Shown: positions 3,001-56,000 of the stretch, in pieces | How positions within the stretch are numbered: position 1 is the first letter of the stretch | Layout of the letters: the number at the start of each line of letters is the position of its first letter | Assembly (NCBI GenBank): GCA_030272155.1 | Contig: CP126191.1 | Span: forward strand, 3,432,501 to 3,496,500 | DNA from: Tetradesmus obliquus | Taxonomy: Eukaryota > Chlorophyta > Chlorophyceae > Sphaeropleales > Scenedesmaceae | Direction of reading: 5' to 3' | DNA length: 64,000 bases | Notes under the pieces: model-generated | Databases searched by the model: none | What the model was told of the DNA's origin: nothing | Seen by the model: only the letters and a program-made list of their open reading frames with translations | Program-made: the position numbers and the translations under genes

Positions 3001-4432
3001 GCGGCGCAGCAGGAGCCGGAGCAGGGACAGGCGCAGCAGGCGGGAGCGTGAGAAAGATGAGCGGAAACCACGCAGCCGCAGCAGAAGCAGAAGCAGAGAG
3101 GGTCGGCGGCAGCGTAGCAGGAGCAAAGAAGCAAAGCGCGCACGCAGCCCCAGCAGAAGCAAAGAAGCGAAGCGCGCACGCAGCCGCAGCAGGAGTAGGA
3201 GTAGGGATGCACGCAAAGAGCGGCGGCGCAGCAGGTCGAGGGACGAGGCAAAGGACAAGAAGGAGGACAAGAAGCAGGACAAGAAGGAGAGCAGGTGGGT
3301 CTTGCACACAGTGCTGAGGCAGCGGCAGGGCCTCTGCAAACATGGTTTTCAGCAGGGCATCATCATCATGTTACCCATCAAGCCATAGCATCAACGCCAT
3401 CGGCCCCGGGCCCCAATGGAGCGGCAACAGAAAGAAGACTACACAATCATGTTTGCAAGCATTACGCACACCCAAAGCCTTTCAGCAGGGCAGACCTGTG
3501 CCTGCTACAAGTGCTGTCATTGTTTGCCAGCAGCCGTGTGCTGGGTAGGATTGTCGCAGTTGAGTTTGTTAAGCTCATCACATGGTGTGCTCTGTGCTGC
3601 AGGCGGTCTGAGAAGCGCGACAAGGACAAGCATACCAGCAGCAGGCGGCAGCGCAGCCGCAGCAGGAGCCGCAGCCCCAGCAGGTCCAAGGAGAGGCACA
3701 AGGAGAGGCGCAGCAGGTCCCGCGATAAGCGCAAGGAGCGCCGGCGCAACAGCAGCAGCAAGAGCAGGAGCAGCAGCCGCAGCAGGGAACGGCGGCACAA
3801 AGCTCGCAGGAGCGACAGCAGGAGCCGCAGCCGTACGCCTAAGCGGGCTAGCGGTGAGTGTCATCATCATCATCATGTTACTCATCAAGCCATAGCATCA
3901 ACGCCATCGGCCCCGCGCCCCAATGGAGCGGCAACTACACCCTCGTGTTTGCAAGCATTACGCACACCCCAAGCCTTTTCAAGAAGTCAGCAATAAACCT
4001 AGACACCAGTAACCTAACAGAACCCCAAGCATCATCCGACACAAACCGCTTCACCTTCACCTCAGCATCTGCAATAGACAACAAGTTACGCAATTTTGCA
4101 GCGCAACCAGACAAAGCCCTAATCTCATTAAACATCTCGCGGTGAGTGTGAAGGGCTGGCAATTTCCTGCAGGAGAGCAGCGTGCCTGCAATCTGGCCCA
4201 TCTGTCTTCAATGCATGTTTCTTTGCGGTGCTTTGTGCTGGCTGCTTAGCTGCTCAATTGCCTACCCGCTTGCAAACACCGTGACAGGACAGCGGCAGCA
4301 GCGCAGCCCCTAGTGATGACTGCATGCCGCTCACTGGTTTGCTGAAGTACCATGTGCGATGTTGTTGCTCCTGCAGGCAAGTCTTCCAGACGGAGCCGCA
4401 GCAGAGAGCACAGCAAGAAGGACCGTCGCTAG
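1..4432 (+). CDS. SR-rich, Q-rich protein, probably splicing-related (5' partial)
   Basis: Six exons fit in phase: <1-839, 1189-1359, 1738-2299, 2560-3294, 3603-3853, 4377-4432 (stop TAG). The frame is open to the window edge, so the start may lie upstream; the first visible Met is at 14. Order of parts: a Gln/Tyr/Gly/Met-rich low-complexity region, a polyA stretch, then VPSWLRAEMAKRQ, an acidic segment, a helical segment ending TDKMFEEVAREV, and more polyQ/polyA. A small beta-rich segment follows (TVWCFMADGRRVPAKVLMVH) that resembles a Tudor/SH3-like barrel. The C-terminus is a long RS domain (RSRSR, SRSRD) spread over the last three exons. RS domains are typical of nuclear pre-mRNA splicing factors; that role is inferred and no RRM is visible. 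Joining 2299 to 2560 rests on phase and on the sensible protein it makes. Introns 4 and 5 carry LINE fragments. Confidence 0.8.
3347..3359. repeat. Target-site duplication, left, LINE copy A
   Basis: TTTCAGCAGGGCA, repeated exactly at 3480-3492 on the other side of the insertion. Confidence 0.75.
3360..3479 (-). mobile_element. 5'-truncated LINE copy A (120 bp) in intron 4 of the SR gene
   Basis: This segment matches 3862-3985 closely apart from one short length difference. It is flanked by a perfect 13-bp direct repeat (TTTCAGCAGGGCA at 3347-3359 and 3480-3492), which fits a target-site duplication. Read on the minus strand it is the 3' end of the element: a non-coding stretch ending in a short ATG-repeat tail next to the left flank. 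A missing 5' part, a simple-repeat 3' tail and flanking duplications are the hallmarks of target-primed reverse transcription by LINEs. It lies antisense to the host gene and wholly inside the intron. Confidence 0.75.
3480..3492. repeat. Target-site duplication, right, LINE copy A
   Basis: Exact 13-bp match to 3347-3359. Confidence 0.75.
3851..3861. repeat. Target-site duplication containing the splice donor (left)
   Basis: GCGGTGAGTGT; the donor GTGAGT begins at 3854, directly after exon 5 of the SR gene. Exact second copy at 4139-4149. Confidence 0.75.
3862..4138 (-). mobile_element. 5'-truncated LINE copy B (277 bp) at the exon 5/intron 5 junction of the SR gene
   Basis: On the minus strand this reads as the last roughly 66 codons of an ORF (MFNEIRALSGCAAKLRN at its start, FVSDDAWGSVRLLVSRF in the middle, stop at about 3935), then a 3' untranslated part shared with copy A, then an ATG-repeat tail. 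The ORF end resembles the extreme C-terminus of LINE ORF2-type proteins in general look; I cannot assign a clade. It is flanked by an 11-bp direct repeat, GCGGTGAGTGT, at 3851-3861 and 4139-4149. The base composition is more AT-rich than the neighbouring exons, which fits a foreign insertion. Confidence 0.75.
4139..4149. repeat. Target-site duplication containing a duplicated splice donor (right)
   Basis: Exact copy of 3851-3861, carrying a second GTGAGT donor at 4142, so the intron now has two equivalent 5' splice sites on either side of the LINE. Confidence 0.75.
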
Positions 4433-15350: not shown

Positions 15351-17419
15351 TCAGTAGCTCTTCTGCAGGAAAGGGTCTGCAGGGCAGGCAGCAGGGGCAG
15401 CAAACACGCACATGTTTGTGGCTTGCATATACCTGGCCAGGATCGGCGTGAAAGCACAAACGCCAGCCTGTGCCACTGCATCAGGGGCACAGGTGCTGGC
15501 CTGAGACATCACAATGCATGACAGCACGTTGTAACATTCACGTAACGCCCGATGAGTCTCACCCAGGGGCTTGCCCAGCGCGTACACGATGAAGCCGATG
15601 CTGCGCAGCGCCTCGTGGTCCAGCACGTTGCGGCCATCAAAGATGAAGGCAGGCTTGACCATGCTGTCATACAACCGCTGGTAGTCATAGCCCTGCAGCG
15701 GCAGCAGCAGCAGCGGCAGCAGCAGCAGCAGCAACTTGAGTACGCATCCAACACACCGCAGGTCCAAACGTGACATCTTCAGCACAGCTGGCTTCAGCAG
15801 TGTTGCTTCAGAATGTTGAAGCAAGGCAAGGCAGGTCGACCTTGCCAGCAGCCTGCAGCCCAATCAGTCCAGCTGCAGGAAAGTTCTGCTGAAGAAATTC
15901 AAAGCTCTCACAACCCGCCCACCTTGAACTCGTCCCACTCTGTCAGCACGCAGATGGCGTGTGCGCCCTCAGCGCAGGCGTAGGGGTCTGCCACCACCTG
16001 AACGTTCTCCGTAATGTGGCGCTCGCTCTTGCCCCAGCCGTGCGGCCTGTCCCACTCAAACTTGGGCGCTGACAGGTCCCGGAAGACCTGGCGCAGGGCG
16101 ACGGTGCAGAAAGCATGCAGGAGGCATAATGGCTTGCGACAACAACAAAATGCATACGGTTGAGCAAGCACAGCACATGCTCAGGTGTGCATTGGCCGCC
16201 AGCTCCTCTGCGCTCGCTGTTCAACACACTGCACTGGAGTGCTGCCTGACCTCCGAGCAAGCAGAATCACAAGCTGCCAGATGGCATCAACTGCAAAGTG
16301 TCCAGTGTAGCACAATGACAAACGCCCTCTATGTGTATGTGCTGTGATCAGTGAGTGACCGGCACAACTCTACGCCCCCCAGCCAGCCGCACGCACCTGC
16401 ACAGGCGTCACTTTGGGGTCATACACCACGCACTTGGCACCATCTGCCAGCAGCCCCCTGCACACGTCAATGGCTGGCGTCTCGCGCGTGTCCCCGGTGT
16501 CTTTCTTGAATGCAAAGCCGAAGATGGCCAGGCGCTTGCGCGCCACGGTGTTGAACATGGCGCTGATCACGCGCTCCATAAAGCGCTGCTTCTGGTAGTC
16601 GTTCATGGTCACCACCTGCAGCAGGGGCGCGAGGCAGGAGCTCGGGAGTTATAAGCATGGCGTGGCGTGCCTATGAAAGTGGCATGTGCGGCGTGGGATG
16701 TGAGCTGGAGTCTGTGCACCACGGCGCTGGTCTCACAAGAGCACGCGCCATAGCTCAGAGCCATGGCTGGTGTCAGCTTACAGCCCCTGCTATACGCCCA
16801 TGGCAGATGTGCTGAGCGTCCAAACGCTTTTAGATTTGCGTCCCCATGCCGCTGGTGGTGTACAACACATCCATGCACAGCACACACAAAACATATAGTT
16901 ACGGCAGTAACACTCAATCACACCAACCGCAGCCTGCCCCCAGCTTGCCTGCATGCAGAATGCACATCAAACACCACCAGCTGCACCGCTCACCTTCATC
17001 CAGGAGTCCGCCACCTGCTTGAGCCCCAGCTGAAACATCCACAGCAGCTTCAATGACAAGCAACCATCCTGACGTCCTCTTACCTTGTCTGTGCCCCATG
17101 CAGCTAGGTGTACATACACGATGACCGTAACACCCATTCACAGCAACACCACCCGCACCCTCACCTTCATCCAGTAGTCTGCCACCTCTTTGAGCCCCAC
17201 GCCCTCACACACGTAGCACAGGTTGAGGATGTCCTTCTGGAAGCAGCTGCCGCCAAAGCCCACGCTGGCATTCATGAACTTGCTGCCAATGCGGCTGTCC
17301 ATGCCGATCGCGCGCGCGACCTGCTGCACGTCAGCGCCGGTGGCCTCGCAGAGTGCACTGATGGAGTTGATGCTGCTGATGCGCTGCGCGAGCATGGCAT
17401 TGGCTGTCGGAGCATTGAC

Positions 17420-20186: not shown

Positions 20187-23100
20187 ATGGCTCGGCTCTT
20201 GCTAGCCAAAGTCGTTGATGTGGCTAATCTGCAGCATTTTGTAGGCGCGCAGCAGTTGCTACAGCTGCGCAGCTTCACAACAAGCCTTGCTGCTGCACAG
20301 GATGCGCTGGTCTTGAAAGCCAGGCAGCAACTAGAGGAGATTAGGTCAGCTGGCACTTTCAAGGTTGAGAGGCAAATAACTACACCCCAGGAGGCTTCTG
20401 TGGGAGTGCTGGATGTGGCACAGCCGGTGCTGAACTTCTGTGAGTACCTCGTGGCAGCATTTACCACAGCAGTCAGTTCATGCATGGCAGTTGTTGGGCC
20501 CACAAACATGCCAGGGTCAGGAAGAGAAGCGGATAAACGTGCCAGTGCATGTGTTGTATTGCTCCAAGGCAGGGCAGACTTTTAGCAGTGTGCATGTCTG
20601 CAGCAGATGATGGTGACGTGCTGCATTCAGACACCCCAGTACACATAGCATCGTCAGCAACAGCAACAGCAACAGAAGGCGCCCTGGGCGCATGCCTCAT
20701 CTGCTGGGCTCCACACATAAAGCTGATCACTTGCACAGCCTTCATCCGTCCTCACTCATCACCCTCCCTCACTCTGCCGTGTTGAATTCCCTGCACTCCG
20801 CCATGCATGCCTGCAGGCGCCAACAACTACCTCGGCCTTTCCAACCACCCCGTGGTGGTGGCAGCAGCGCGCAAAGCGCTGGACAGCCACGGCTATGGGC
20901 TCTCCTCGGTGCGCTTCATCTGCGGCACGCAGGACCTGCACAAGCAACTGGAGGCGCGCATCAGCGCCTTCCACGGCACAGAAGACACCATCCTGTACCC
21001 CAGCTGCTTCGACGCAAACGCAGGTGCAAAGCCAGCACATGAAAACAACTTGCAGTGTGGTGGCAGCAGCAGCTGCGCTGGTCACCTGATAGTTGTTAGA
21101 AGTGGCTGCGCTGCCGGCGTCAAAGGCAAAGCAGCTGCTGCTGCCAGCAGCATGAGCAGCTCATGTCGCATGTATCCCGCGGAATGTTGCCGAGTGTGGG
21201 TGGCGTGAGCAGCAGCAGCGGATGACGCGAGAGGCAGCAGTGCCGTATGCACACATGGCCGGCGTGCTAGCTGACATGGAGAAGCCCCCAAGCCCACGCT
21301 GCTACTCAACCCCCGGCCTTGCTGCACGTCATGCAACACGCACGGAATCTTGCGTCACGGTTACGACCAGGGTGCTCCTGCTGCTGCTGCTGTGCTTGCT
21401 GCAGGCCTGTTTGAGGCCCTGTTAGGCCCAGAGGACGCCGTCATATCTGATGAGCTCAACCACGCCTCAATTATCGATGGCATTCGGCTCTGCAAGGCCA
21501 AGCGCTACAGGTGAGAGCAGCAAAGGCGCCCAGCAATGCAGCTGCAGTCCAGCCACAGCTGCCGCCAGGTCGATCTATACATCAGCATTCTCATCTGCCG
21601 CTTGCAGGCCTTTGGCAGTTCCCCTTCTGTGCAAACATCTGGCGCTGCCACAGCACCTTGCAGCACAGTGCAGGTTGCCCTCACCGGACAACGGGCAGCG
21701 TGCAGTGTCGTGGTGCATGTCATGCAGCATGTCACGTGAAGCGTGACACAGTGCCAAACGTATGCTGTCGGCGTGTTTGCTTGTGCGTGGTGTTGGCTGC
21801 TGCTCACGGACACTCTCCAGACACAGGCACAAGCAAATGGGCCTGATTGACCTGCACCTCATGACCATGGAGGCGGAGGATGCTGGACTCATGTGTCCTC
21901 CAAGGATGCAGAGCATTCTTAAACTGCTGGTGCTGCCTGCTGCTGCCGCCGCTGCAGGTACAAGCACACGGACCTGATTGAGCACAAGATCATGAAACCA
22001 AGCAGTTGAGGCTTGATTCAAAAAAATTGCATTATTGATTGCTGGTGCTGTGCTGCCGCTGCAGGTACAAGCACATGGACCTGATTGACCTTGAGCACAA
22101 GATCATGGAGGCAGAAGATGCGGGCGCAAAAGTGAAGCTTATTGCAACAGATGGCGTCTTCTCCATGGACGGCGACGTGAGTCTGCTGCAGCGCATACAT
22201 AGCATGCGGCTGGAGCGGCAGCGGTTGCGCGCAGCATCTGGGAACACTTGCACAAAAGGCAGTTGTTTTAAGATGTTGCGTGTGCGGTGGTGGATGCGCC
22301 GGTGGATGCGCCACATCGTCTTTCTGGGACTGTTGCGCACTGCCTTGCGCAGCAACCAAGTGCGCGTGCAGCCCTTGAACTTGCCCGGCAGTCTGCCTGC
22401 CTGCACCACCTTTGCTCCCATCCTACCTCGTGGTCTTGGCAGATTGCGCCCATTGGTTACATTGTGGCGCTGGCACACCACCACCACACACTGCCTTCCG
22501 CTGCACCCGTGTCCGCATGCACTTTCAAACTGCTTCCATGCCGCTGCTCCCCTTCTCCTGCAGATTGCTCCTATTGGCGACATCGTGGCACTGGCGCACC
22601 ACCACGACGCGCAAGTGTTCAGTGACGAGTGCCACGCCACTGGCTTTGTGGGGGCCACGGGCCGCGGCACAGATGAGGCTTGCAACGTGCCTGGGCAGGT
22701 GGACATCATCAACTCCACACTGGGCAAGGCACTGGGCGGTGGCACAGGTGCGGCGCTGTGTCACGTAATCTAATCTTCAAAGCAGCGGTAGGTTTTTAAA
22801 GATTTGTGCAAGCACGGCCTGTGCCTTGTCAGCTGGGTGGTGTTTGGTTTTCTGATGGCAAGCGCTGCCGGCTGCAATCATGGCTGCTGCCTATCAATGG
22901 TGTGTTTTGTTTGAGTGTCGCTGGCTGGACTGCCACTTAGCAGTCACATGTTGCTAATTGTCGCGTGCCGCATGCGCCACATCCACCACGTGCATTGTGC
23001 GACTCCCATCATGGTGCTGCGCAGGCGGCTCCACCACCGGCAAGGCTGACATCATCGCCCGCCTGCCGCACGCTCCGCATCCCTTCAATTACCTCACCGT

Positions 23101-26100
23101 CATTGTGTTGCTTGCATGAGGCTACACCACTGGCAAGGCTGACGTCATCATTGCTCGCCTGCTGCATGCGCCGCATCCCCTGCATCGCCCCTCTATCATC
23201 GCCCTCCTCGCATGCTGCTACACCACCGGCAAGGCTGACATCATTGCGCGCGTACCGCATGCGCCGCATCTTCTAATCAATTTCTCGGTCATTGTGTTGC
23301 TCGCAGGCGGCTACACCACAGGCAAGGCTGACGTCATCGCGCTGCTGCGCCAGCGCCCCCGGCCCTACCTGTTCAGCAACAGCCTCGCGCTTCTAATCAT
23401 TTCTCAATCATTGTGTTGCTCGCAGGCGGCTACACCACAGGCAAGGCTGACGTCATCGCGCTGCTGCGCCAGCGCGCCCGGCCCTACCTGTTCAGCAACA
23501 GCCTCGCGCTTCTAATCATTTCTCAATCATTGTGTTGCTCGCAGGCGGCTACACCACAGGCAAGGCTGACATCATCACGCTGCTGCGCCAGCGCGCCCGG
23601 CCCTACCTGTTCAGCAACAGCCTCGCGCTTCTAATCATTTCTCAATCATTGTGTTGCTCGCAGGCGGCTACACCACAGGCAAGGCTGACGTCATCGCGCT
23701 GCTGCGCCAGCGCGCCCGGCCCTACCTGTTCAGCAACAGCCTCGCGCTTCTTATCATTTCTCAATCATTGTGTTGCTCGCAGGCGGCTACACCACAGGCA
23801 AGGCTGACGTCATCGCGCTGCTGCGCCAGCGCGCCCGGCCCTACCTGTTCAGCAACAGCCTCGCGCTTCTAATCATTTCTCAATCATTGTGTTGCTCGCA
23901 GGCGGCTACACCACAGGCAAGGCTGACGTCATAGCGCTGCTGCGCCAGCGCGCCCGGCCCTACCTGTTCAGCAACAGCCTCGCGCTTCTAATCATTTCTC
24001 AATCATTGTGTTGCTCGCAGGCGGCTACACCACAGGCAAGGCTGACGTCATAGCGCTGCTGCGCCAGCGCGCCCGGCCCTACCTGTTCAGCAACAGCCTC
24101 GCGCTTCTAATCATTTCTCAATCATTGTGTTGCTCGCAGGCGGCTACACCACAGGCAAGGCTGACGTCATCGCGCTGCTGCGCCAGCGCGCCCGGCCCTA
24201 CCTGTTCAGCAACAGCCTCGCGCTTCTAATCATTTCTCAATCATTGTGTTGCTCGCAGGCGGCTACACCACAGGCAAGGCTGACATCATCACGCTGCTGC
24301 GCCAGCGCGCCCGGCCCTATCTGTTCAGCAACAGCCTCGCGCTTCTAATCATTTCTCAATCATTGTGTTGCTCGCAGGCGGCTACACCACCGGCAAGGCT
24401 GACATCATTGCGCGCGTACCGCATGCGCCGCATCTTCTAATCAATTTCTCGGTCATTGTGTTGCTCGCAGGCGGCTACACCACAGGCAAGGCTGACGTCA
24501 TCGCGCTGCTGCGCCAGCGCGCCCGGCCCTACCTGTTCAGCAACAGCCTCGCGCTTCTAATCATTTCTCAATCATTGTGTTGCTCGCAGGCGGCTACACC
24601 ACAGGCAAGGCTGACGTCATCGCGCTGCTGCGCCAGCGCGCCCGGCCCTACCTGTTCAGCAACAGCCTCGCGCTTCTAATCATTTCTCAATCATTGTGTT
24701 GCTCGCAGGCGGCTACACCACAGGCAAGGCTGACATCATCACGCTGCTGCGCCAGCGCGCCCGGCCCTACCTGTTCAGCAACAGCCTCGCGCTCCTAATC
24801 ATTTCTCAATCATTGTGTTGCTCGCAGGCGGCTACACCACAGGCAAGGCTGACATCATCACGCTGCTGCGCCAGCGCGCCCGGCCCTACCTGTTCAGCAA
24901 CAGCCTCGCGCTTCTAATCATTTCTCAATCATTGTGTTGCTCGCAGGCGGCTACACCACAGGCAAGGCTGACGTCATCGCGCTGCTGCGCCAGCGCGCCC
25001 GGCCCTACCTGTTCAGCAACAGCCTCGCGCTTCTAATCATTTCTCAATCATTGTGTTGCTCGCAGGCGGCTACACCACAGGCAAGGCTGACATCATCGCG
25101 CTGCTGCGCCAGCGCGCCCGGCCCTACCTGTTCAGCAACAGCCTCGCGCTTCTAATCATTTCTCAATCATTGTGTTGCTCGCAGGCGGCTACACCACAGG
25201 CAAGGCTGACGTCATAGCGCTGCTGCGCCAGCGCGCCCGGCCCTACCTGTTCAGCAACAGCCTCGCGCTTCTAATCATTTCTCAATCATTGTGTTGCTCG
25301 CAGGCGGCTACACCACAGGCAAGGCTGACGTCATCGCGCTGCTGCGCCAGCGCGCCCGGCCCTACCTGTTCAGCAACAGCCTCGCGCTTCTTATCATTTC
25401 TCAATCATTGTGTTGCTCGCAGGCGGCTACACCACAGGCAAGGCTGACGTCATCGCGCTGCTGCGCCAGCGCGCCCGGCCCTACCTGTTCAGCAACAGCC
25501 TCGCGCTTCTAATCATTTCTCGGTCATTGTGTTGCTCGCAGGCGGCTACACCACAGGCAAGGCTGACGTCATCGCGCTGCTGCGCCAGCGCGCCCGGCCC
25601 TACCTGTTCAGCAACAGCCTCGCGCTTCTAATCATTTCTCAATCATTGTGTTGCTCGCAGGCGGCTACACCACAGGCAAGGCTGACGTCATAGCGCTGCT
25701 GCGCCAGCGCGCCCGGCCCTACCTGTTCAGCAACAGCCTCGCGCTTCTAATCATTTCTCAATCATTGTGTTGCTCGCAGGCGGCTACACCACAGGCAAGG
25801 CTGACGTCATCGCGCTGCTGCGCCAGCGCGCCCGGCCCTACCTGTTCAGCAACAGCCTCGCGCTTCTTATCATTTCTCAATCATTGTGTTGCTCGCAGGC
25901 GGCTACACCACAGGCAAGGCTGACGTCATCGCGCTGCTGCGCCAGCGCGCCCGGCCCTACCTGTTCAGCAACAGCCTCACGCTTCTTATCATTTCTCAAT
26001 CATTGTGTTGCTCGCAGGCGGCTACACCACAGGCAAGGCTGACGTCATCGCGCTGCTGCGCCAGCGCGCCCGGCCCTACCTGTTCAGCAACAGCCTCGCG

Positions 26101-26850
26101 CTTCTAATCATTTCTCAATCATTGTGTTGCTCGCAGGCGGCTACACCACAGGCAAGGCTGACGTCATCGCGCTGCTGCGCCAGCGCGCCCGGCCCTACCT
26201 GTTCAGCAACAGCCTCGCGCTTCTAATCATTTCTCAATCATTGTGTTGCTCGCAGGCGGCTACACCACAGGCAAGGCTGACGTCATAGCGCTGCTGCGCC
26301 AGCGCGCCCGGCCCTACCTGTTCAGCAACAGCCTCGCGCTTCTAATCATTTCTCAATCATTGTGTTGCTCGCAGGTGGCTACACCACAGGCAAGGCTGAC
26401 GTCATCGCGCTGCTGCGCCAGCGCGCCCGGCCCTACCTGTTCAGCAACAGCCTCGCGCTTCTAATCATTTCTCAATCATTGTGTTGCTCGCAGGCGGCTA
26501 CACCACAGGCAAGGCTGACATCATCACGCTGCTGCGCCAGCGCGCCCGGCCCTACCTGTTCAGCAACAGCCTCGCGCTTCTAATCATTTCTCAATCATTG
26601 TGTTGCTCGCAGGCGGCTACACCACAGGCAAGGCTGACGTCATCGCGCTGCTGCGCCAGCGCGCCCGGCCCTACCTGTTCAGCAACAGCCTCGCGCCCAG
26701 CGCGGTGGCAGCCAGCATTGCCGTCTTCGACCTGCTGAGCAGCAGCAGCGCGCTGCGCGACAAGCTGCAGGAGAATGCAGACTACTTCAGGCGGCAAATG
26801 GCGGCTGCGGGCTTCAGCATACGGCCGGGCAGCCACCCCATCGTGGTGAG

Positions 26851-26882
<32 letters not shown>

Positions 26883-27326
26883 CTGCCGCTATAATGCAGC
26901 TGTGGGTATGCCTCTCAGATACTGCAGTGCTTTCCTGTGCTGCTTGCTGTCAATGTGACTGGATCTTGACAACAATTGGCTGCTGGTGCTGGCCCCTGCC
27001 GTTTGCCACTTATGCACAGCCCAGCCCATCATGCTGGTAGCGTCTATCCTGGATCTGTGTGTTGACGCTGCTGCTGCTGCCGCTGCTGCTGCCTTTTTGC
27101 CACATGCCCGCAGCCCATCATGCTGGGTGATGCTGCGCTGGCCAACAAGATGGCCTCAGCCATGCTGCAGCGAGGTGTCTACGTGGTGGGCTTCTCCTAT
27201 CCTGTGGTGCCCAAGGGCACAGCACGCATCAGGGTGCAGCTGTCTGCTGCGCATGAGCGGGAGCACCTGGATAAGGCCATAGCTGCCTTTAAAGATGTCG
27301 GCCAGCAGCTGGGTGTCATCCAGTGA
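20187..27326 (+). CDS. KBL: 2-amino-3-ketobutyrate CoA ligase (glycine C-acetyltransferase)
   Basis: Seven exons in phase: 20187-20439, 20817-21023, 21405-21510, 22065-22176, 22564-22747, 26613-26845, 27114-27326; 435 residues, about 37 longer than bacterial Kbl. The extra N-terminus ([18 protein letters not shown], few acids) suits a mitochondrial targeting peptide. The PLP enzyme cleaves 2-amino-3-oxobutanoate with CoA to glycine and acetyl-CoA in threonine catabolism. Marks: [39 protein letters not shown], Asp247 and His250 in [12 protein letters not shown] lysine 281 in [30 protein letters not shown] and [10 protein letters not shown]. The coding exons look intact and collinear with the bacterial enzyme. 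The oddity is the introns: four of six acceptors are preceded by copies of intron tail plus exon start, and intron 5 (3,865 nt) contains the large 119-bp array. Confidence 0.95.
21827..21891 (+). pseudogene. Degenerate copy 1 of KBL exon 4 start
   Basis: After an AG at 21826 the sequence reads [19 protein letters not shown], matching the true exon 4 ([20 protein letters not shown] from 22065) over about 65 nt. It lies in intron 3. Confidence 0.8.
21958..22006 (+). pseudogene. Degenerate copy 2 of KBL exon 4 start
   Basis: Preceded by a copy of the intron tail (GCTGGTGCTGC...GCTGCAG) and reading [15 protein letters not shown], with a short internal deletion relative to exon 4. Confidence 0.8.
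22443..22487 (+). pseudogene. Degenerate copy of KBL exon 5 start
   Basis: After CAG the 45 nt read [15 protein letters not shown] against [15 protein letters not shown] in the true exon at 22564. Eight of 45 bases differ, six of them silent in this frame. Confidence 0.85.
23023..26612 (+). repeat. Tandem array of intron-tail plus exon-start units in KBL intron 5
   Basis: Exon-like starts after CAG recur every 119 bp from 23307 to 24259 (nine units), then one 93-bp unit at 24378, then every 119 bp from 24471 to 26494 (18 units), and finally the true exon 6 at 26613. Each 119-bp unit is 84 nt identical or nearly so to the start of exon 6 (GGYTTGKAD ... [10 protein letters not shown]) followed by 35 nt of intron tail: CTTCTAATCATTTCTCAATC, then ATTGTGTTGCTCGCAG. 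Three more diverged copies lead the array at about 23026, 23128 and 23216. Units differ by a few bases only, mainly at GACGTCATCGCG / GACATCATCACG / GACGTCATAGCG. No unit but the last continues into exon 6 proper, and no GT donor is evident at the unit's exon end. Confidence 0.97.
24365..24457 (+). repeat. Odd 93-bp unit inside the array
   Basis: This unit matches the diverged leader unit at about 23201-23293 (GCGCGCGTACCGCATGCGCC and the CGGTC variant of the tail), not its 119-bp neighbours. It shows that an older unit type was copied or moved into the middle of the homogeneous array. Confidence 0.9.
26850..26881. repeat. CTG triplet run at the start of KBL intron 6
   Basis: About ten CTG units immediately after the donor GTGAGT at 26846. 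Confidence 0.9.
27001..27037 (+). pseudogene. Short copy of KBL exon 7 start with intron tail
   Basis: TTTGCCACTTATGCACAGCC followed by CAGCCCATCATGCTGG repeats the tail and first 13 nt of exon 7 (TTTTTGCCACATGCCCGCAG then CCCATCATGCTGG at 27114). Confidence 0.75.
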
Positions 27327-53051: not shown

Positions 53052-56000
53052 CAGATTGCTGTGCTCAAAGAGATGGACGCCAAGGGCCCCTTTGTGTCGC
53101 TGGTGATGGGCGTGGTGGTGCTCAAGGACGTGGTGGTCATCGTGCTCTTCGCGCTTAACATGGAGCTGGTGCCAATGGTGAGGCTCTGCCAGGGATGCAG
53201 CAGGCGCAGCAGCAGCAGCAGCAGCAGCAGGCAGGCACAGGTGCAGGCACAGCAGAAGGTAGCAGGGAGGCAAAAGCAGCAGCAGCAGCAGCAGCACCGT
53301 CACCAGCACCAGCACCAGCAGCTGGTGGGCAGGGGTCCAGGCACAGCAGCAGCAGCTAGCGGGCAGGGGGCCAGGCACAGCAGCAGCAGCAGCAGCTGGC
53401 GGGCACGGGGGCAGGCGCAGCAGCAGCAGCAGCTGGCGGGCAGGCAGCCAAGCACAGCAGCAGCAGACAGGCAAGCAGCCATGCATGCACGGCTGCAGGC
53501 CGGCCGGCCAGCCGGCAGGGATGCAGGCTCAGCAGTCAGGCATCAGCCAGGCACACAGGATGCACGTGTGCAGGCGCAGCAGCAGCATGTAGCAGCCAGG
53601 GGGCAGCAGGAGGGCGGCGTAACTGGTGGAGGAGGAGGCAGCCTGCCTGAATGCTTTTGCATAGGCCACACCATGTTGTAAGATCACTCTGATGTCTGCT
53701 GCCTCAAGGCAGTGCTAGCGCTGCCAAAACGCCTGCGCCTGACTGCTTGGTCTGTCTTCTGGCGCCTGCTGCTGCAGATGGTCAGTCAGGACTCCGCAGC
53801 TTTCGGGCTAATACACGTGCTGCTGCCGCTGCTGAGTGTGGGCGTGTCCATCACAGCCGGCCTGCTGGGTGGCTATCTGATGAGCCTGGCGCTGCAGTTC
53901 CAGCTGCACAGCATGATCGTGGCAGCAGTCATGGCTGCAGGCCTCAATGGGGGCGTGCCTCCTGCAGTGCTGCTCGCAAGGTGAGAACAGCAACGGCTGC
54001 CCACAAGAACTTCACTTGCAACGCGCTGAATGGGATGGTTCGCAGCCTGCACGTCGCTGGGAAGCTGATGTATGATGCCGCATAAGTTGCCTTGCAGCAA
54101 ACACCGCCAACATAGCAGCAGTTGTTACTGTGCGTATATGTGCACAATCGTACTGTGCTGCTGGTGGTGCGTCTCCTGCAGGTGCAAGCAGCTGGTGGTG
54201 CTGCTGCTGTCCACGGCCGTGTTCAGCATCACGCGCTCGCTGGAGGCGGAGCCGCTGCTGGCCTGCGTGACTGCAGGCATGGTGCTGGCCAACAGGAGGT
54301 GCGTGCTGGGCGGGAGCTCCTACAGCGATAATGCTCTAAAAGTATGTAAGAAGAGATTGCTGTCAACAGCAAGCGCTTGTGCATGCCATGTGTGCACACA
54401 GCCGCAGTCATGATGGCTGGCTGTGCGGCTGGTTGAAAGGGTATGCCACCATTTCCTTGGTCGTACTGCTTTGCTGCCGCTGCAGCAACGGCGGCGGAAG
54501 CAGATCAAGTACATGCTGCTGGTATTCTGGTTCGAGCAGGCTGGTTGCTGACTATAGTTGTGTCTACCGCGTCTTTGCCACTGCAGGCCCAGTGGTGCTG
54601 GGACAGACCTGACTCACGAAGAGCTGACAGCGCTGATAAACAGCATAATGAGGTTCACCAATGTGGCGTTCTTTGGCCTGGCGGGAGCGTCCCTCAAGCT
54701 GGTGAGCTGCCAAACACGAGGCGGAGTTGCAGGCTGCTACTTTTGCTGCTGGATGCTGAAACCTGCAGACATTGCCTGCTTGCCAACTTCACCACCTCGT
54801 GCACTGGCCCGACAGCGCACGCCGCTCGCACACCTGCCGCCAAGCTGAACCTGCTGCGTTCTTGCGATTGCTGCTGCTGCTGGTCAGGCTGCCATTGCGG
54901 ACAGCGTGTGGGTGGCGCTGGTGGTGGTGCTTGCGCGGCTGGCTGCCATTGTGTCTGGCAGCTGGCTGGGCTGCAGGTTTGGCGGCGTGAAGCAGGAGCT
55001 GCACGCGCAGTGCTTCTGGATGAGCATGATCACGCAGGTGAGCCCAGCGCATGGCTTTGAATGTACTGTTTCATAGTATGGCAAGGCAGGCCTGACTAAG
55101 AACCAGGCTAGCCGCAGCAAGCTTAGAAGGTGGCAGCGTCAGCGCCAAGCTGCCGGGCACAACTGTCACGCTGCACGCATTATGCTCCGTGCAGGAGTCT
55201 TCGCACACACGAAGCGATTGCGGCTCTCGTGCAAACGCAGATCAACCAGCGCCCAGCCGAGGTGTCCTGTTGTTGTGCCTGGGTGTGCTGAATGTTGACG
55301 CTGGTGTCTGGCTGCTGTCCTGCAGGCTGGCGTGGCCATGGGCCTGTTGCATTCGACATGCGCGTAAATATGCCGAGTGTCGAGCCAGTGTTTGCCACTG
55401 CTGCTTACTATCCTGCAGGCTGGCGTGGCCATGGGCCTGGCGCGCATTGCTGGCACGGCCTTCAGCGGCTGGGGCCCTGCCTTCCAGACAGTCATGATGG
55501 CCATCATCATGGTCAACATGCTCACAGGGCCGCCCTTCTTCAGGGCAGCACTCATCAAGGTGAGCTGCAAGCCTATTAGATTGAGTTAGGGGGCTTTTCC
55601 GGTGGGTTGCCAGCCTGCACACAATAATCGGCCACATCATAAGCCTTTGGACAGCTGTGCTGCAGAATCATGCAACAGAAAGAGCATCGCTGCAACCGTG
55701 TGTGTAACATGCATTGTGGCTGCAACATGCTGCTGCAGGTTGGGGAGGCCCGCGCGCACTTCCTGCCCTCTCACGGTGTGCACCAAAGCCTGCACAGAGA
55801 CAACTCGGAAATGCCACCGCTAGCCGCAGACAGCAGCGACGGCGTCGTCACCCGCCACACCAGCAGCAAAACAGTTGGCGCAGCAGCGGCCAAGTCGAGC
55901 TGGGTTCATCCGCTGGGCAGCAGCAACAGCTCGGTTGCACCGCGGAGCGGCAGCGGGCAGCTGCTGCAGTTGGCGAATGTAGGGCCAGCCGGCAAGGTGG

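Follow-up and report, generated by a model that had tools for sequence, protein, structure and literature searches.

Intron 5 of the KBL gene of Tetradesmus obliquus carries a 119-bp tandem array in which the 3' splice site and the start of exon 6 occur 29 times, and this array is the most extreme case of a broader and very unevenly distributed habit of this genome, that of copying exon edges into adjacent introns. The preliminary description of the window (the whole stretch of DNA analysed, 64,000 nucleotides) had framed the array as a one-off device, which was wrong. There is good support for an origin by tandem duplication across the splice junction and for later expansion through exchange; the whole is probably a minisatellite that arose from such a duplication, is tolerated by way of exon definition and was enlarged by exchange. 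This reading is supported by copies in many introns, on the acceptor as well as on the donor side, and in several introns of KBL itself.

The seven exons of KBL join to a 435-aa protein, which passes the NCBIfam equivalog TIGR01822, glycine C-acetyltransferase, with 653 bits against a cut-off of 493. With the protein of exons 6-7 as query, no second KBL copy was found in the organism's own genome (104.66 Mb, 17 contigs); the matches consisted of KBL itself, the array units and two distant matches with 33% and 28% identity. With 3865 nt, intron 5 is the longest among 240 predicted introns (sample median 279 nt). Coordinates are given in Table 1.

Table 1. Position of KBL, its exons and its splice-edge copies in the window
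Feature	Position	Strand	Remark
KBL gene	20187-27326	+	
Two degenerate copies of acceptor and exon-4 start	21824..21994	+	
Live exon 4	22065-22176	+	
Copy of acceptor and exon-5 start (one)	22439..22487	+	
Exon 5	22564..22747	+	followed by donor CAG|GTGCGG
Intron 5	22748-26612	+	
Three older degenerate units, ~93 bp each	23008 (about)..23306	+	two without AG at the homologous place
Array, units of acceptor and exon-6 start	23270..26696	+	
Sole 93-bp interval, old-type unit within the array	24378..24470	+	belongs to the block repeated at offset 1164
Sole donor-like site in the array, CAG|GTGGCT	26375..26380	+	directly after variant decoy acceptor 26374
Live exon 6, 233 nt	26613..26845	+	first 83-84 nt equal the exon half of the unit; donor at 26846
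16-nt exact match to acceptor and exon-7 start	27022..27037	+	live one at 27111; under the threshold of the intron survey

The existence of the array was confirmed both by the listing of acceptors and by Tandem Repeats Finder, which reports 29 copies of 119 bp over the full extent given in Table 1. All 29 acceptors, i.e. 28 decoys and the live one at 26612, follow the pattern CAG|G(C/T)GGCTACACC. The last base of the acceptor CAG lies at 23306 and at each 119 bp from there to 24377, then at 24470 and at each 119 bp to 26612; 27 of the 28 spacings measure 119 bp, and the one between 24377 and 24470 measures 93 bp. Each unit is composed of 36 nt of intron tail, starting with CTTCTAAT and ending with CAG, and 83 nt of exon 6. 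The earlier division into 84 and 35 nt is equivalent to this one, the base after the junction being C in the array and in the live exon. Over the full 119 nt, eight decoys match the live unit without a difference, and 13 of the 28 share its exon half exactly. The preliminary description had overlooked the 93-bp unit, the three older units upstream, the copies before exons 4 and 5 and the 16-nt match before exon 7.

Comparison of the array with itself at an offset of 1164 yields, between 23217 and 24227, stretches of 140, 272, 175 and 294 nt that match exactly. These stretches, together with variants that recur along the array, indicate that a block of many units was duplicated, and the near-identical block bears out the origin by exchange that had been suggested before. 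Over lags 1-14 (26 units) the mean difference between units shows no increase with distance, the result to be expected if exchange acts throughout the array, and the live start of exon 6 is a member of the homogenised set of units. A short tandem duplication crossing the splice junction, and thereby combining intron tail and exon start, would have founded the minisatellite, which block-wise exchange would then have enlarged into the array seen in KBL.

Acceptor and donor weight matrices were built from the other predicted introns. All 29 array acceptors score 6.2-7.5 (intron median 6.6); with the decoys scoring equally, the sequence of the live site gives it no advantage, and the earlier view of the upstream acceptors as equivalent is supported. 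Exon 5 joined to any decoy leads to a premature stop in 28 of 28 cases, provided that the transcript keeps all sequence between the decoy and the exon 6 end. The stop is TAA in 18 cases, TAG in 5 and TGA in 5. The full 435-aa protein is obtained from 26612 alone, and the statement that the gene must skip its decoys is upheld. Judged from the reading frame, 26612 would be the sole acceptor in use.

Only the live copy continues into the rest of exon 6 and the donor at 26846. Tolerance through exon definition appears to be the likeliest mechanism: the spliceosome would take the last copy as the sole one with a complete 233-nt exon and a donor, while the decoys would leave as intron because they are equally good acceptors without a donor. 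The array would mainly be tolerated, and any effect on expression would be secondary. Experiments with duplicated acceptors bear on the choice of the last copy via exon definition. No donor was found in the consensus unit at a threshold set to the 10th percentile of predicted donors, and AGGT-type creation of a new intron in KBL was dropped for this reason. Splicing from one decoy to another, which had also been proposed, is unlikely in an array with one donor-like site only. The variant acceptor 26374, directly followed by the donor-like GTGGCT, forms a possible zero-length recursive splice site.

With units that span the border and each carry a splice site, the array resembles the splice-border minisatellite of human factor VII (F7) intron 7, where 37-bp repeats contain repeated donor sites and oriented scanning is described as using only the most upstream 5' splice site (PMC6627357). 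The two systems share tandem repeats at an exon-intron border, in F7 of variable number (PMC6627357). As F7 is described there, an end copy alone is used, whereas in KBL it is the last copy that, from the frame, would have to be used; the F7 repeat lies on the donor side with a 37-bp unit, the KBL repeat on the acceptor side with a 119-bp unit including 83 nt of exon, and with 28 decoys.

In the potato RdRp gene a tandem duplication over an intron-exon boundary made a new intron, the boundary-crossing segment carrying branch site, tract and 3' splice site as it does here (PMC4974935). According to this account one duplication sufficed for a new intron, whereas in the present genome the copies stay in the old intron and the pattern recurs elsewhere in the genome. 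Intron gain by tandem duplication does not describe KBL, where the only donor-like site is at the 26374 variant. In human segmental duplications, internal tandem repeats at exon-intron boundaries are reported to alter splicing, and minisatellite expansion at such boundaries is the common feature (PMC2812944); the human cases are given as units of 30 bp on average in recent paralogues with 27 intron modifications, compared with steps of ~120 bp and 53 of 240 sampled introns in the survey below. Small tandem duplications arising from Pol alpha-primase at DNA breaks (PMC8355091) are a possible source; splice junctions are not linked to them in the abstract.

Mutually exclusive or cassette exons do not describe the KBL copies, which are not bounded by an acceptor and a donor. 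By DNA search of the own genome the unit was not found elsewhere among the best candidates scored; introners and mobile elements were dropped on this ground, as the near-identical sequence was found at one locus and not dispersed.

The survey of exon-edge copies covered 20 stretches of 10 kb across 17 contigs together with the window. One stretch (L011, C2:500001-510000) consists of N throughout and was excluded from all counts, leaving 254 kb. The gene finder was self-trained on the same 254 kb, its models are unverified, and 240 introns were tested. It placed exon 6 of KBL at 26613, failed to find KBL exon 1 and annotated one exon-4 decoy as an exon; that some decoys are called exons is a caution for the survey as a whole.

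The start of the next exon is copied in 38 of the 240 introns and the end of the previous exon in 26, which amounts to 53 introns with a copy of either edge and 11 with copies of both. In the control with introns of other genes, copies were found in 1/720 comparisons for exon starts and 0/720 for exon ends. Far-end controls gave 4/193 for exon starts against the following intron and 2/193 for exon ends against the preceding intron. Inverted copies of either edge occurred in 0/240 introns, and mechanisms generating inverted copies were dropped. At the slightly lower threshold used for the tally per intron, no acceptor-side copy is present in 202 introns, one in 24, two in 6 and three in 5, and single introns have 5, 7 and 31 copies, the last being KBL intron 5. 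The second largest case in the sample is a 998-nt intron in stretch L022 (5692-6690, reverse-strand coordinates), where the next exon's start is present in seven copies.

An alternative view of the array is that of a regulatory brake, in which fractional use of decoys would lead to an early stop and degradation, and array length would set KBL output. The premature stop on decoy use, the mark of a poison exon, is found at all 28 decoys, whose scores match the live site; similar copies in 53 of 240 introns of unrelated genes are not suggestive of a device specific to KBL, and we regard the brake as improbable. No sequence features were found that argue specifically for an expression brake or for the splice-site sink also suggested earlier.

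The spread of copies is uneven, and this speaks against the preferred reading of a tolerated minisatellite: 12 of the 29 genes with at least three introns are free of copies. Within the window, the nine genes with at least three introns have copies in 4 of 56 introns, three of these in KBL. At the other end, copies are present in 8/15 introns of stretch L022, 5/8 of L014 and 5/9 of L015. Some copies elsewhere span a whole exon (L014:6782). Three gene models with copies match the Pfam families PALP, DEAD helicase and mitochondrial carrier.

The sample contains 94 local repeat clusters, with a smallest step of 80-150 bp in 66 and of 90-150 bp in 62. The median step is 123 bp (interquartile range 111-140) for 81 adjacent duplications, which were preselected for steps of 60-200 bp, so that the width of the distribution is partly set by selection. 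Steps divisible by 3 account for 16/37 on the acceptor side (KBL left out) and 9/26 on the donor side (hand count); a preference for in-frame steps was rejected as not convincing. Boundary duplications relate to intron-only duplications as 48:13, compared with a ratio of 0.57-0.95 for random placement. Second copies were found for 26/578 intron-internal 45-mers, 32/194 exon starts and 22/196 exon ends. Two decaying intronic copies fade faster than a pair of one decaying and one conserved copy. Over and above what selection and visibility would produce, a preference for splice borders is not established. In stretch L016 a 1.4-kb direct repeat, 98% identical (1-1380 and 1457-2832), lies in a region with no predicted gene.

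As a check independent of the gene models, the whole genome was searched with Pfam profiles. Partial copies were defined by overlapping profile ranges at neighbouring places (overlap of at least 15 profile positions, within 1.5 kb), and loci with at least three places were considered. Among the matches listed, 8 of 21 conserved gene loci have partial exon copies: 6/11 for CCT/Cpn60, 1/4 for aldehyde dehydrogenase and 1/6 for class-III aminotransferase. For these three families, 87 of 88, 13 of 68 and 36 of 36 candidates were scored, and 96, 14 and 39 profile rows were used, respectively. The steps range from ~110 bp to >1 kb, and some short overlaps may represent alignment overhang. One CCT stretch was read directly and contains three decoys ahead of the live exon in steps of 136, 158 and 134 bp, with CAG preceding the copied exon start in each of the three.

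The splice dinucleotide is kept in most copies (AG in 32/38, GT in 20/26), and conservation is usually higher in the exon half than in the intron half. The spacer shows significant homology (p<0.02) in 20 of the 48 cases that could be tested. Among the 20 copies that reach an exon identity of 0.9 or more over 30 nt or more it is significant in 9; in 7 there is no clear homology of the intronic half (p>0.1), which is not what plain recent tandem duplication would lead one to expect.

With KBL left out, mismatches between decoy and live exon fall on codon positions 1-3 as 50:36:133, i.e. 61% at position 3. Without two rows from a CAG-rich model of L022 the share is 132/201 (66%), with a binomial p of 1e-5 against one half; this p assumes independent mismatches, an assumption that holds only in part. 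With base mutabilities taken from non-exonic repeats, a decoy evolving neutrally next to a live exon that changes synonymously would give at most 47% at position 3, and the observed excess does not fit neutral decoys, a point against the preferred reading. Mismatches between decoys are distributed as 65:58:162 (per-intron mean 0.53 over 21 introns), and the four CCT copies, compared pairwise over 63 nt, differ at 5-8 third positions and 0-1 others. From this excess, many copies seem to have spent much of their separate history as coding sequence, or to be still exchanging with the live exon. For KBL an excess is not demonstrable because the exon part of its units, the 93-bp unit left out, varies at too few sites, four first and three third positions, seven in all (hand count).

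These codon-position patterns favour the idea of a reservoir, tentative as it is, in which intronic edge copies swap roles or sequence with the live exon through collapse, unequal crossing-over or gene conversion, so that selection on the protein reaches the copies. The preferred reading of a tolerated minisatellite also has intronic copies re-entering live use, which would happen by collapse or conversion at a rate high enough to give them a coding appearance. Against the reservoir, no conversion tract could be demonstrated, the KBL sites are spread over first and third positions, and copies derived from a diverged allele would look alike. Extended to the genome, the same idea becomes a standing process, which is possible but doubtful: exon edges would again and again be duplicated into the neighbouring intron in steps of ~120 bp, the copies would serve as a reservoir exchanging with the live exon, intron sequence would come under coding constraint, and KBL intron 5 would be the runaway case. 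Diverged alleles could themselves be the source if unequal recombination between haplotypes had set the exon edge of one allele beside that of the other. This would account for the mostly synonymous differences and the poorly alignable intron halves; introns with 3, 5, 7 or 31 copies would require many such events, and we consider it an unlikely explanation.

The KBL copy number rests on one assembly, and repeated or stuttered contig joins could in principle mimic tandem copies. The copies are of varied divergence, have mostly intact splice sites and lie on many contigs, and distinct variants recur within the KBL array, all of which makes an assembly artefact highly improbable.

Studies of how the spliceosome chooses among numerous equal 3' splice sites usually rely on engineered constructs. 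KBL offers 28 natural competitors of equal score in an intact gene, and the same genome has dozens of simpler cases at acceptors and donors alike. The array could be used as a natural experiment on the way in which cells pass over splice sites that are equal but wrong; it would also show the lengthening of introns and a possible turnover of exon borders. Gene finders may call such copies exons, as happened here. A literature search over titles and the starts of abstracts, with partial coverage of subscription journals, found no report of a genome in which about one fifth of sampled introns bear exon-edge copies.

Further repeats were observed in the window. A second gene has a copy of acceptor and exon start, 31/32 nt identical (55315-55346 and 55408-55439). 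On the reverse strand, an exon end and its donor are copied at 16972-17028 and 17144-17199, a donor-side counterpart; the open reading frame of this gene matches PF00984, the UDP-glucose/GDP-mannose dehydrogenase central domain. Two consecutive predicted introns of an arginine-serine-rich gene share a repeat of ~120 bp (3358-3482 and 3865-3978, 86% identical), which is confined to intron sequence, with no splice edge copied.
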